Positions 2,248 through 6,209 of a stretch of DNA of 29,530 nt are shown piece after piece. This stretch comes from a virus. Both the position numbers and the translations under genes were made by a program. The stretch lies in IMG/VR virus record IMGVR_UViG_3300017742_000072, positions 1 to 29,530 of that record; one strand, written 5' to 3'. The notes under the pieces are model-generated. The model saw nothing but the letters and a program-made list of their open reading frames with translations. It was not told the DNA's origin and did no database searches. Position 1 is the stretch's first letter; each line of letters opens with the position of its first letter.

Positions 2248-2473
2248 TAGTTTCACCAAGATCTTTTTGTATTTTTTTGAATCTTTGCTTAAGTTTCCAA
2301 TTTTGATATTTGATTACTGTACCAAAAGTTATAATATAATAGTATCTCTTGAGTTCTAGCATTGATTGTCGAAATTTTAAATCTAAATACATGCCAACAT
2401 TTGGATCAACAACAATCAACAACATCACAATAGCAAATATTGACAGTAATACACCGTAGTATATACTTACCAT
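2240..2473 (-). CDS. Small single-pass membrane protein between two oxygenases
   Basis: This 77-residue protein has one strongly hydrophobic segment at about residues 5-23 (GVLLSIFAIVMLLIVV). A basic, aromatic-rich cytoplasmic-type tail follows (LKRYYYIITF, then KLKQRFKKIQK). The ATG at 2473 is preferred to the GTG at 2479 because AAGG sits 5 bases before it. It overlaps the upstream oxygenase gene by 7 bp and the downstream one by 8 bp, so all three are probably translated together. I recognise no family. It could place the oxygenases or their substrate at the host membrane, but that is only inferred from gene order. Confidence 0.65.
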   Translation of the reverse strand: MVSIYYGVLLSIFAIVMLLIVVDPNVGMYLDLKFRQSMLELKRYYYIITFGTVIKYQNWKLKQRFKKIQKDLGETNE

Positions 2474-3117
2474 ATACACCTTTTAGAAGATCTTGGAACA
2501 TTTATGGCAACAAGATATGGTTCTTTATTAACCATGTTTATTTCATGACGATAAAGACAGTTCCACAGAATTTTTTTATGTCCTCCTGATACTTTCACTC
2601 CTTTATGAATATGATAGTGATCAACAGGAAAACATAATACTGTTCCTTTCTTCGGTGTTACTGTCAACTTATCATTCAGGAATCGTGTTTCGCCACCATC
2701 AAAATCATCATTTAAATAGATTATGTAAGAAAACTCAGCATGATCATTTGGTGATTGATCTCCATGCCATTCATATGAATCACTCTCATTATACATACGA
2801 ATTATATTTTTTCCTTTCCAAACTTGAGTTTTGGAATTACCCACGGAAAGCAATTGATGTTTGTCCCATTTATAAAAAATTACTGGATTTTCTCTTATGT
2901 AATATTCATTGGCAGCGTTAATCCATTTCCACCCCATAGAATCTAGATCAGGGTGATTATCAATCACATATGTATCATTATCCCTTCCTTTACTTCGGAA
3001 AGTTTCTATAAGTGAAGGATCATAAAACTGAAACATACCAAGAAAGTGATCAATTTCATCATCTGGTATAAAATTTTCCAGTTCCCATATGTATTTTGTA
3101 TGTTTTACTACATTCAT
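2467..3117 (-). CDS. 2-oxoglutarate/Fe(II)-dependent oxygenase, second copy
   Basis: This 216-residue protein shows the same fold signature as the 1702-2247 product: H118-x-D120 (EWHGDQ), a central FDGGETRF turn and distal H171 in HIHKGVKV. At the usual 2OG-binding arginine position, ten residues after the histidine, there is K181 (GGHKKIL). Lysine fills this role in some family members, so activity remains plausible. The N-terminal 100 residues and the C-terminal tail after residue 190 differ from the first copy, so the two probably act on different substrates. Its ATG overlaps the methyltransferase stop as ATGA. Base composition changes sharply at this junction, from about half GC to about a quarter. 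Confidence 0.85.
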   Translation of the reverse strand: MNVVKHTKYIWELENFIPDDEIDHFLGMFQFYDPSLIETFRSKGRDNDTYVIDNHPDLDSMGWKWINAANEYYIRENPVIFYKWDKHQLLSVGNSKTQVWKGKNIIRMYNESDSYEWHGDQSPNDHAEFSYIIYLNDDFDGGETRFLNDKLTVTPKKGTVLCFPVDHYHIHKGVKVSGGHKKILWNCLYRHEINMVNKEPYLVAINVPRSSKRCIW

Positions 3118-3956
3118 ACCAGAAATGCCTCCAAAGCACCGACGTAAGGTTTCGCCTTCTCAGGGTATTTAACAATAACCAATTCAGTCTTATCGTAACG
3201 CTTGGTGCCAGACATTTGGTAAGGGAATGTAAGATACCTGAACTCAGTCCATCCCTCATAAAGATTACGTACACTGTCACTATTATCATAGGACATCACA
3301 AACCCACCCTTGTGTTGCTTCAGTGTCTCACAGAACTGTTCATGGTTAAATGATTTGTGAAGAGCACCATCTTTACCATAGTAATGACTCACAGTCTCAT
3401 AATATGGTGGGTCCAGGTACAAGAAGTCATTTTCATGTGCTGGGATGGTGTCGAAGCAACTGCCATAGGCAAACGACACGTTGGGAGCATGGAAATTCCT
3501 AAGTTTATTCACACCCACTAATCTGAACTCTGCTCTACTACGAACAGTAGAACATCCGATCTTACCTGAGTACGAACCCTTGATTGTAAGGTAGAATGAG
3601 AGTGCTCGCTCCCACTTGTCCTCACTATCTAATCCTGGAAGGAATGATTTGTAGTGATCACTGTCAACTAGTGGAAAATGCTCCTCTGCCATGTCGGCAA
3701 GGATAGCAGCACCACCATTGCCCACCACAATTTCCCAGAAGTCTGCTAGTGGGCGAAACACGTCATAACCTTGGACCTTGACGCCCTCACTGGCGATCAG
3801 CATTTCAGTGCTGCCGCCACCCCAGAAGGGTGACACAAGATATTCAATGCCAGGATTGACATCACGAATGATCTTGATCAGATCTTTCTTCATTCGATTC
3901 TTACCACCAGCATAGCGGTAGAGAGAATGATTAGTTACTTTTTGAGATGGGGCCAT
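3114..3956 (-). CDS. dam: DNA adenine-N6 methyltransferase, D12 (Dam-like) class
   Basis: This 280-residue protein transfers a methyl group from S-adenosylmethionine to adenine N6 in DNA. The motifs are in the order of the D12/alpha class: motif X RYAGGKN at residues 14-20, motif I PFWGGGST at 43-50 (SAM binding) and catalytic motif IV DPPYY at 182-186. The length is typical, so it looks intact. The recognition site cannot be read from the sequence. The start overlaps the HNH nuclease gene by 22 bp, and its stop overlaps the next oxygenase (ATGA). A TATAAT at 3998-4003 inside the upstream gene could give it an extra promoter. It may protect DNA from the adjacent nuclease module or from host enzymes. 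Orphan methyltransferases are also common in phages. Confidence 0.9.
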   Translation of the reverse strand: MAPSQKVTNHSLYRYAGGKNRMKKDLIKIIRDVNPGIEYLVSPFWGGGSTEMLIASEGVKVQGYDVFRPLADFWEIVVGNGGAAILADMAEEHFPLVDSDHYKSFLPGLDSEDKWERALSFYLTIKGSYSGKIGCSTVRSRAEFRLVGVNKLRNFHAPNVSFAYGSCFDTIPAHENDFLYLDPPYYETVSHYYGKDGALHKSFNHEQFCETLKQHKGGFVMSYDNSDSVRNLYEGWTEFRYLTFPYQMSGTKRYDKTELVIVKYPEKAKPYVGALEAFLV

Positions 3957-4906
3957 GAATAGGTGCTACGAAGAACTTTGGCAGTAAACTTATCTCTATT
4001 ATATCCTACAGGTTGGTGATTTGACAAGTCTAGACAGTCACACATAATAGATACGTATGTGTCGTTGTTGATTCTTCCGTTGACATAACTAGAAGCGGCA
4101 ACACGTATAGCACTGAACATCTGTTGTGCTAATTCCTTGTCACCATACAAGTGTTCGTGTAGAATAGTATTGAGAACTGGTTTGTAGTTGCCTTGACTAC
4201 CACCAGAACGTACTTCTCCCTTCTTAGTTAAACGAAATGGTTGTAGTGATGACATACCAACATTACGCCACATGTATTTCTCATAACGTTTAGCACACAT
4301 AGGAGCAAACTTTGCCAGATCTTCCTCATCCATAGCGAGGATCTTGACCTTCTCTTTCTGTCCTTTAGCAGATGCTTTGAGAGTATCAGCATACCAACTG
4401 TTAAACTCTGTCTCTCCTTTGTCAGCACGTTTCTGCCAACGATCAACAAACACCTCCATGGTGGATTGTTTACGATTCTCGTTGACATTGTACAGAGTCA
4501 AGATCATATTATCTGGATGATCTCCACCGTTAGGTGAGATATGCTCAACTTGTAAGTCAAGAATATGATGTGGTCCACTCAAAGTATAAGCACACTTACG
4601 ATCTTGCTTCAGATACATTTGACACAGAAGAATGCCACGCTGTTGTGTAGGATTATCTGTCAATGATTCACTGACTGGATCCCACCAACCAAGGTGACCC
4701 TGCTGACCAGACTTACGAATCATGGCACGATCAGCTGTAGACTGAGAATTATAAAAGATAGATGCTTCTTCCCATGATACTTCAACAGTATTTACTTTGG
4801 ATCGAATAGCATCACCACCAGATAGTAGAGTCTCTTTGTTATCCAAGAGACCCATAGTTTGATGCCAATCGAGAATTTGGTGACCAGGGATACGAGTTGA
4901 GATCAT
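3935..4906 (-). CDS. HNH-family endonuclease
   Basis: This 323-residue protein has an HNH nuclease core in the middle. The segment KCAYTLSG (residues 104-111) resembles the entry strand of HNH folds. VEHISPNGG (120-128) carries the general-base H122 and a GG turn. N133, N140, N142 and N144 lie in the following helix, where the N and final H/N of the motif belong. I do not see paired CxxC zinc motifs. Long flanking regions (1-95 and 150-323) may recognise DNA or bind partners and are unfamiliar. The frame continues upstream to 5026, but the ATG at 4906 forms a TGATG junction with the helicase stop and is much more likely. HNH enzymes include homing and restriction nucleases; the context favours a helicase partner. 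Confidence 0.72.
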   Translation of the reverse strand: MISTRIPGHQILDWHQTMGLLDNKETLLSGGDAIRSKVNTVEVSWEEASIFYNSQSTADRAMIRKSGQQGHLGWWDPVSESLTDNPTQQRGILLCQMYLKQDRKCAYTLSGPHHILDLQVEHISPNGGDHPDNMILTLYNVNENRKQSTMEVFVDRWQKRADKGETEFNSWYADTLKASAKGQKEKVKILAMDEEDLAKFAPMCAKRYEKYMWRNVGMSSLQPFRLTKKGEVRSGGSQGNYKPVLNTILHEHLYGDKELAQQMFSAIRVAASSYVNGRINNDTYVSIMCDCLDLSNHQPVGYNRDKFTAKVLRSTYSWPHLKK

Positions 4907-6153
4907 CAGACAGTGACGGAAACAGCAGGAAGACCCTTGACGAAGATAGTCTCGACAAGGTTTTGGAGACGTTTGATAGTGTGAGCACCGTAGTTCTTGA
5001 AGACAGGTACGATGACCTTGCCACAAGACTTACGGTACATGTCGAATTTGCCTGGGATAATCTTACCACAAGCAATGTCAGCAGCGTCGTCTTTGTTAAG
5101 ACGTATGACACGACCAACAGTTTGTGCCATTTGGATGACATCGAGTTGACGAAGGAACACACAGTGTGTTAGACCATGAACGTTGATGCCTTCAGACAGG
5201 ATGCTATAGTGGAAGATCACAAACTTACGGTTTGGATCCTTACCCCAAGCATTGAACGTGTCGAAGAACTGCTCACGGTTGACCTTAGTCTTGTTCACAT
5301 AAGCACCATACTTGCTGGTGATGTGGAGCACATCATAACCCTTCTCATGGAAGAAGTCAAGAACAGTTGTCTTGGAAAGCAGATTAAACATGATCTTGCT
5401 GCTAGGAGCAGCGATCAGGATCTTGTTGCCATCAGCATCAATGTCTTCAATTAGATTGGTGAGTGTGTCTTTGTCAGACTCATAGGAGAACTGACCCTTG
5501 ACTCGCTCGAAGTCAACCTCATAGGATATAACCTCAGGAGCAAGAATGCTGCCGTTGTTGAGCAGTTCAGGAGCAGGCACATTCTCAAGCACAGGACCAT
5601 ATACTGTGCTATTGTTCATGCCACGTCCGTAAGCATTACGAGTGTGCTTAGGTGTGGCGGTAAAGAAATAGTAGGACTTAGACTCAACATTGAGTACAGA
5701 CTCAAAGAAATCACGACGGACAGCATTGTGTGCCTCATCGTAATAGATACAGTCAATATCAATGTCAGACTCTACAATACGACGGAGACTGTTGTATGTG
5801 GTGAATATAATCTCATGAATACCAGCAGTCTTACAGACAGCATGATGGCACTGAATCTGTTGAACTTTAGTGCTGCTAGCGAAAGAAGTCTCACCACTAT
5901 GAACGTGAAACATCTCAGCATTTACAGTACCGTTGAGAGCAGTCCAGAACTCATCACACAGTTGGTTTGCCAGCAGAATACGTGGGGCGACCACTACAAT
6001 AGTCTGTGGCGTGGTGGCAGCGAGCAAACGACGCTCAGTGTCTTTGATCATGACAAGAGTCTTGCCACCACCTGTGGGGACAATGACCTGACCAAAGGAA
6101 TTGTTCTCAAGAGCAGCAAGTGCTCGCTGCTGGTGAGGACGAAGGGTGAGCAT
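4906..6153 (-). CDS. Superfamily 2 DEAH-box helicase (ResIII/UvsW-like)
   Basis: This 415-residue protein carries a complete SF2 motif set: LRPHQQRAL near residue 4 (Q-motif-like), Walker A PTGGGKT at 26-32, DEAH at 139-142, TATP at 165-168, SEGIN at 320-324 and QTVGRVIR at 344-351. It should use ATP to translocate on or unwind DNA. Related proteins are annotated as type III restriction Res subunits or as the T4 recombination helicase UvsW. At 415 residues it is essentially the two RecA domains, with no nuclease domain of its own; an HNH nuclease follows directly, joined by TGATG. The ATG at 6153 has an AGG 6 bases upstream. A terminator and a TATAAT precede it, so it probably leads its own operon. 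UvsW identity is possible but not shown. Confidence 0.85.
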   Translation of the reverse strand: MLTLRPHQQRALAALENNSFGQVIVPTGGGKTLVMIKDTERRLLAATTPQTIVVVAPRILLANQLCDEFWTALNGTVNAEMFHVHSGETSFASSTKVQQIQCHHAVCKTAGIHEIIFTTYNSLRRIVESDIDIDCIYYDEAHNAVRRDFFESVLNVESKSYYFFTATPKHTRNAYGRGMNNSTVYGPVLENVPAPELLNNGSILAPEVISYEVDFERVKGQFSYESDKDTLTNLIEDIDADGNKILIAAPSSKIMFNLLSKTTVLDFFHEKGYDVLHITSKYGAYVNKTKVNREQFFDTFNAWGKDPNRKFVIFHYSILSEGINVHGLTHCVFLRQLDVIQMAQTVGRVIRLNKDDAADIACGKIIPGKFDMYRKSCGKVIVPVFKNYGAHTIKRLQNLVETIFVKGLPAVSVTV

Positions 6154-6177
6154 GAATGCCTTGCTGACTACCCTATT

Positions 6178-6183
6178 ATTATA
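6178..6183 (-). promoter_or_regulatory. Consensus -10 box upstream of the helicase operon
   Basis: The minus strand reads a perfect TATAAT here, 25 bases above the helicase ATG, giving a leader of roughly 18-20 bases with an AGG ribosome site. No -35 match exists because that region is the terminator hairpin at 6191-6209. This suggests a phage promoter read by host sigma70-type polymerase with a phage helper, or a weak constitutive one. It would allow the module to be expressed separately from the structural genes. Confidence 0.55.
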
Positions 6184-6186
6184 GCA

Positions 6187-6209
6187 GAAAACCGCCCTTG
6201 TGGGGCGGT
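6187..6209 (-). terminator. Intrinsic terminator ending the structural block
   Basis: A perfect 7-bp GC-rich stem (ACCGCCC pairing with GGGCGGT) closes a 5-base loop. On the minus strand it is followed by T residues (GGTTTTC), which the plus strand lacks. It begins 9 bases after the stop of the 6219-6602 gene. It is the clearest terminator in the window and marks the boundary between the tail genes and the helicase module. Confidence 0.75.

Follow-up and report, generated by a model that had tools for sequence, protein, structure and literature searches.

Cyanophages degrade host DNA and compete with one another within one cell, and the enzymes by which phages without modified cytosine distinguish host from phage DNA are, to our knowledge, poorly known. 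The DNA analysed here, a 29.5-kb IMG/VR sequence referred to as the window, has T4-like Synechococcus myoviruses as its nearest isolates and carries overlapping genes for a helicase, a predicted HNH nuclease and a predicted D12 adenine methyltransferase. Do these genes make up a restriction or exclusion system of the phage, as a preliminary description of the locus had proposed, and does the helicase belong to it? Two new observations, the swapping of the HNH gene as a block and a depletion of the motif YGCR that tracks the trio, suggest a virus-borne cut-and-protect system.

Organization of the locus

The coordinates confirm the three overlapping minus-strand genes of the preliminary description (Table 1). 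The ATG of the HNH gene (4906-4904) lies within a TGATG at the helicase/HNH junction, and the HNH and methyltransferase genes overlap by 22 bp in the window. Across loci, the helicase/HNH spacing was -1, -4 or +2 nt and the HNH/methyltransferase overlap was mostly 19-22 nt; the helicase, HNH and methyltransferase genes form one translationally coupled run. The terminator and TATAAT box that had been described as the trio's own are present in the sequence (a consensus terminator scan gave no report of the hairpin), but they belong to the helicase gene, because a similar hairpin and -10 box stand 5' of the helicase in several phages, both with and without the HNH–methyltransferase pair. The trio is flanked upstream by a tail chaperone gene and very long genes, and downstream by 2OG-Fe(II) oxygenase genes. 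There are two of the latter, at 1702-2259 and 2467-3117 (-), and the second begins within the last 4 bp of the methyltransferase gene. G001, a 190-kb relative with the trio, carries psbA.

Table 1. Features of the helicase–HNH–methyltransferase locus in the window
Feature	Position	Strand	Description
Helicase	4906..6153	-	415 aa, SF2 DEAH; Kyanoviridae core gene (S-PM2 'T4-like GC 36'), not UvsW
HNH nuclease (predicted)	3935..4906	-	323 aa; Cas9/HNH_4-like core at about residues 74-145, helical flanks; allele-swapped
D12 (Dam-like) N6-adenine methyltransferase (predicted)	3114..3956	-	280 aa; central and catalytic regions nearly invariant
Terminator-like hairpin ACCGCCC-CACAA-GGGCGGT, TTTT tail	6188..6209 (hairpin 6209-6191)	-	Read from sequence
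TATAAT -10-like box, upstream of helicase	6178..6183	-	Read from sequence

A core helicase gene precedes the pair

The helicase consists of two RecA domains only. It matched the Pfam families ResIII (2.4e-18) and Helicase_C (3.4e-7), and, as an SF2 DEAH helicase, carries Walker A GGGKT, DEAH and QTVGR motifs. The gene is present in 418 isolate phage records, from T4-like cyanophages. In the four isolates that we inspected (S-PM2, S-RIM44, S-CAM3 and Sf-FP1), it has tail and 2OG genes nearby, small genes of no assigned function come after it, and nothing similar to the HNH–methyltransferase pair was found behind it in any of the four. Its distribution indicates that the helicase is an ordinary Kyanoviridae core gene and, by descent, not part of a special system; the real unit is the HNH–methyltransferase pair, set behind a core helicase gene that was already there. 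The helicase probably has the role that it plays in phages without the pair, and it may also contact the HNH protein physically. The preliminary description had also raised a UvsW-like repair helicase as an alternative. We ruled this out: the match to T4 UvsW is confined to a 41-residue stretch (E 0.002), without full-length or N-terminal-domain homology, and two relatives with the trio (G001 and G003) each encode a separate protein that aligns with T4 UvsW at 33-34% identity along most of its length.

The HNH and methyltransferase genes stay together

Scanning IMG/VR with the methyltransferase alone returned 37 loci. The HNH gene lay directly before the methyltransferase gene in all of those with enough upstream sequence (34/34), and the order helicase–HNH–methyltransferase was kept in all 33 that were long enough to show all three genes. 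The trio therefore does stay adjacent, and the arrangement is not due to chance. An HNH-profile scan agreed, in that every HNH locus whose contig continues has the methyltransferase next. As in Type II restriction–modification systems, nuclease and methyltransferase genes are thus adjacent and kept together.

On the helicase tree, pair-bearing phages fall into three groups with pair-less phages between them. The presence of the pair requires three changes on this tree, at least two of them on supported branches, and the two genes have therefore been acquired or lost as a pair on more than one occasion. One variant of the helicase locus (L134:5184-6029) carries a 2OG-type gene and a different D12 methyltransferase, and has no HNH gene. 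We found no isolate phage with the same HNH–methyltransferase pair in a collection from which near-identical records may have been withheld, and our literature searches found no paper describing the trio.

Conserved residues of the predicted nuclease and methyltransferase

Pfam HNH models gave no match to the window HNH protein alone; its assignment is backed by HNH_4, which was matched by 4 of 18 aligned homologues (best 6.7e-6). Among these 18, H122, N133 and N142 were invariant and E121 was nearly so. The catalytic residues therefore appear intact, as expected of a Type II nuclease, rather than those of an inactive core. With the PHROG 3561 profile, 17 of the 18 homologues matched at E values no higher than 0.1, the lowest being 1.5e-12; the window protein itself matched at 1.2e-5. 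The AlphaFold2 model of the protein was fairly confident (pLDDT 87, pTM 0.62), and its best structural matches were predicted proteins of the cyanophages S-TIM5, ACG-2014f, S-CBWM1 and S-N03 (best E 2.7e-9). In Foldseek, the model matched no PDB entry at an E value under 0.001, and the VIA structure comparison gave weak HNH matches only, the best having Z scores of 5.5 (an HNH nicking enzyme) and 5.0 (NmeCas9); HNH_4/Cas9-like cores are weak matches to this protein. PADLOC gave no match for it, and a scan of genome contigs that used only two peptide patterns found no bacterial homologues.

Several members of the HNH family lie near methyltransferase genes: that of S-N03 adjoins a D12 methyltransferase, that of ACG-2014f is one small gene away from one, and that of S-TIM61 adjoins a C5-type methyltransferase. 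The large proteins of this family (L069:3110-5689, L068:5326-6984 and L072:3209-4891) have an N-terminal part that is common to proteins differing in the nuclease part. Residues 1-151 of the RN05-S protein recur at 65% in RB11-B, S-H68 and S-B05, and the S-TIM54 and S-TIM61 proteins share their first 46 residues. By analogy, a shared N terminus with a varying nuclease end would resemble polymorphic toxins with exchangeable nuclease ends.

The methyltransferase matched Pfam MethyltransfD12 (2.3e-15). DPPY is invariant and the SAM-binding motif is conserved in 16 homologues, so that the catalytic motifs are intact here as well, and the central and catalytic parts are almost invariant. PADLOC returned generic Type II and orphan methyltransferase matches.

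Block exchange of the HNH gene between conserved neighbours

In closely related loci, the HNH protein can differ strongly although the helicase and the methyltransferase remain similar. Between L032 and L033, the helicases are 90% and the methyltransferases 95% identical, whereas the HNH proteins are 23% identical; between L038 and L039, the corresponding values are 93%, 99% and 47%. Identity drops where the helicase gene stops and is regained at the start of the methyltransferase gene. The synonymous difference between L018 and L015 is 0.14 at the end of the helicase gene, about 0.6 across the HNH gene and 0.04-0.12 over the first three quarters of the methyltransferase gene, and a synonymous step at both gene borders would not be produced by rapid protein evolution alone. 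Near-identical HNH alleles occur in divergent backgrounds (L018 and L026, L015 and L038). For L018 and L026, the synonymous difference in the HNH gene is 0.15, versus 0.33 and 0.34 for the background. Between close HNH alleles, omega is 0.04-0.26, which indicates purifying selection, and in the swaps that we observed the alternative was always another HNH allele, never loss.

These comparisons show clearly that the whole HNH gene has repeatedly been exchanged while its neighbours stayed almost the same and its catalytic core was kept, a finding that is new for this locus. They also weaken the argument, made in the preliminary description, that the gene overlaps exclude a homing nuclease. A parallel is seen in S-TIM61 and S-TIM54, in which a neighbouring C5-type methyltransferase is 98% identical and the HNH-type protein is 28% identical, its first 46 residues being 85% identical.

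Depletion of YGCR tracks the pair

In a survey of 4-mers, TGCA, CGCA/TGCG and CGCG (together YGCR) were depleted in trio phages, and among all 4-mers only TGCA and CGCA separated the trio and non-trio groups fully with a large effect. YGCR was picked from a scan of many motifs, and its confirmation needs an independent set. Locus by locus, the observed/expected ratio (O/E) of YGCR was 0.00-0.26 in 27 of 27 trio loci, compared with 0.50-0.85 in 27 of 27 helicase-only loci. In samples of 9-190 kb, it was 0.04-0.20 in 12 trio contigs drawn from all three groups versus 0.48-1.06 in 13 others. Depletion and presence of the pair agreed without mismatch among 52 tree rows, which represent only two to three independent changes (sign test p 0.5), and the association could be a host-group effect. 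The window retains 22 YGCR sites, 20 of which are TGCA. Its density of 0.7 per kb (0.5 in G001) compares with mostly 16-24 per kb in samples of picocyanobacterial genomes, which are not depleted.

Phages without the pair varied. L134, which has the helicase and a different D12 methyltransferase but no HNH gene, is not depleted. L139 (G010), a sister phage without the pair, has an intermediate YGCR O/E of 0.48 and no CGCG. We did not see YGCR depletion in T7-like, siphovirus or myovirus phages of the estuarine Synechococcus strains CB0101, CB0204 and CBW1002. Two simpler candidates were rejected: CGCG alone as the trio signature, since two helicase-only contigs also lack CGCG and YGCR as a whole separates the groups, and GATC as a recognition site, since it is not depleted in trio phages.

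Many marine cyanomyoviruses (for example, L192-L204 and L227-L236), whether or not they carry the trio, show strong avoidance of another degenerate motif, RGCY (AGCT, AGCC/GGCT and GGCC; O/E about 0.16-0.4), but S-CRM01, S-N03 and S-CBWM1 do not. Because marine cyanophages without the pair avoid RGCY too, host pressure can create such depletion. The S-RIM44 samples (L192-L196) contain no GTAC and no CCGG; CCGG occurs at the expected rate in the window (34 versus 32 expected), and most trio relatives have none.

A candidate cut-and-protect module and its alternatives

The best explanation, to which we give about an even chance, is that the HNH protein and the D12 methyltransferase form a two-gene, restriction–modification-like conflict module of T4-like cyanophages, set behind the core helicase and translationally coupled to it. 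In the infected cell, the HNH protein would cut DNA foreign to the phage, namely the host chromosome and/or a competing phage, and the phage would be spared by the near-absence of the cut motif together with m6A on those sites that remain. YGCR is the leading candidate for this motif, and may be the site of the nuclease itself or that of a host enzyme. The gene order, the coupling, the catalytic residues, the HNH–methyltransferase linkage, the block replacement of HNH under purifying selection and the association of the module with YGCR depletion are observed; methylation-sensitive cutting by the HNH protein, YGCR as its site and the host or a rival as its target are what we infer. As for a site shared by nuclease and methyltransferase, YGCR depletion tracks the pair, yet an m6A enzyme cannot protect every YGCR, CGCG having no adenine. 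A constant methyltransferase beside a swapped nuclease is also odd for a cognate pair unless the alleles share one specificity; either the alleles would be isoschizomers, or nuclease and methyltransferase would be linked more loosely. The HNH-family gene of S-CRM01, in whose genome we found no D12 methyltransferase match, and the intermediate YGCR value of the pair-less L139 likewise count against the module. Of the proposal made in the preliminary description, the restriction or exclusion role itself is favoured by the strict HNH–methyltransferase linkage, by the exchange of nuclease alleles and by the low YGCR content that accompanies the trio, whereas the helicase as a dedicated third component is not supported, being a core gene of hundreds of phages that lacks the pair behind it in the four isolates inspected. 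It is possible, although we hold this only tentatively, that self and non-self are told apart by purging of the motif: the exchangeable HNH protein would cut YGCR, which is nearly erased in the phage and about 25 times denser in GC-rich Synechococcus/Cyanobium, so that the host is shredded and the phage is spared. The methyltransferase would cover the remaining adenine-containing sites, and conflict with inhibitors or with rival phages would drive the turnover of nuclease alleles.

Other explanations account for parts of these data. In phages, HNH nucleases often act in homing, and a free-standing homing or marker-exclusion nuclease could cut the allelic position in rivals and be copied in through helicase and methyltransferase homology, the methyltransferase being a passenger or serving another purpose. 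Replacement bordered at the gene ends and alleles common to different backgrounds are consistent with this. We nevertheless consider it unlikely, as there is no empty site among 22 clade-A rows of the helicase tree, every HNH copy on a continuing contig keeps the methyltransferase and the tight coupling on both sides, none of the observed swaps resulted in loss, and homing does not predict genome-wide YGCR depletion. We are similarly doubtful that a host restriction–modification system targets YGCR, with the phages avoiding the motif, the methyltransferase guarding the remaining sites and the HNH protein having an independent role. That many pair-less marine cyanophages avoid RGCY, that L139 and L137, likewise pair-less, share the CGCG portion of the signature and that solitary D12 methyltransferases are common in cyanophages all speak for such anti-restriction. 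It is at odds with the undepleted phages of CB0101, CB0204 and CBW1002, with the undepleted picocyanobacterial genomes and with L134, and it leaves the strict HNH–methyltransferase linkage unexplained. Least plausible, and in our view improbable, is a single ATP-dependent restriction complex of all three proteins, a split system like Type I or Type III with the helicase as translocase. This would fit with the helicase and HNH genes being translationally coupled at every locus, and with a helicase that resembles ResIII and bears a weak likeness to PbeA-type defence proteins, but the helicase is a core gene in pair-less phages and is not swapped while HNH is, with alleles down to 23% identity.

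A coupled nuclease–methyltransferase pair in three phage lineages, with an allele-exchanged nuclease and a concrete candidate motif, allows a direct test, by means of two small proteins, of which enzyme cuts which DNA.

Comparison with known systems

The locus does not match Type III restriction–modification, in which Res has fused helicase and nuclease and Mod is of the beta class; here the HNH protein is separate, the methyltransferase is of the D12/Dam type and the helicase has two RecA domains. The HNH domain of Cas9 and IscB (Pfam HNH_4) resembles the core weakly, and here it would be part of a small stand-alone protein without the rest of Cas9/IscB. The PHROG 3561/HNH proteins of S-TIM5, ACG-2014f, S-N03, S-CBWM1, S-CRM01 and RN05-S are homologous in the HNH region by profile and predicted structure, and several lie near a methyltransferase gene. 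They differ in their size (about 530-970 aa), their long N-terminal parts and their location elsewhere in the genome.

Marseilleviridae carry a GATC methyltransferase with an adjacent cognate nuclease that is proposed to act in co-infection, and host DNA is not degraded (PMC7253447). The window likewise has a predicted virus-borne methyltransferase with an adjacent nuclease, but GATC is not depleted here, and the likeness is one of gene arrangement. The closest precedent for adjacent viral nuclease and methyltransferase genes with short sites is that of the chloroviruses, in which a virus-encoded nuclease gene lies beside a methyltransferase gene, sites are short and degenerate (for example, CviJI, RGCY) and the nucleases packaged in virions are believed to break down the DNA of the host (PMC7019647). 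As in chlorovirus restriction–modification, the predicted nuclease gene adjoins the methyltransferase gene, and large cyanophage relatives of the HNH protein (in S-TIM5 and S-CBWM1) bear the annotation label of virion proteins. Unlike the chlorovirus systems, the pair described here belongs to cyanophages, has a predicted HNH nuclease, is coupled to a helicase gene, and combines swapping of the nuclease beside a constant methyltransferase with a viral genome in which a motif is depleted.
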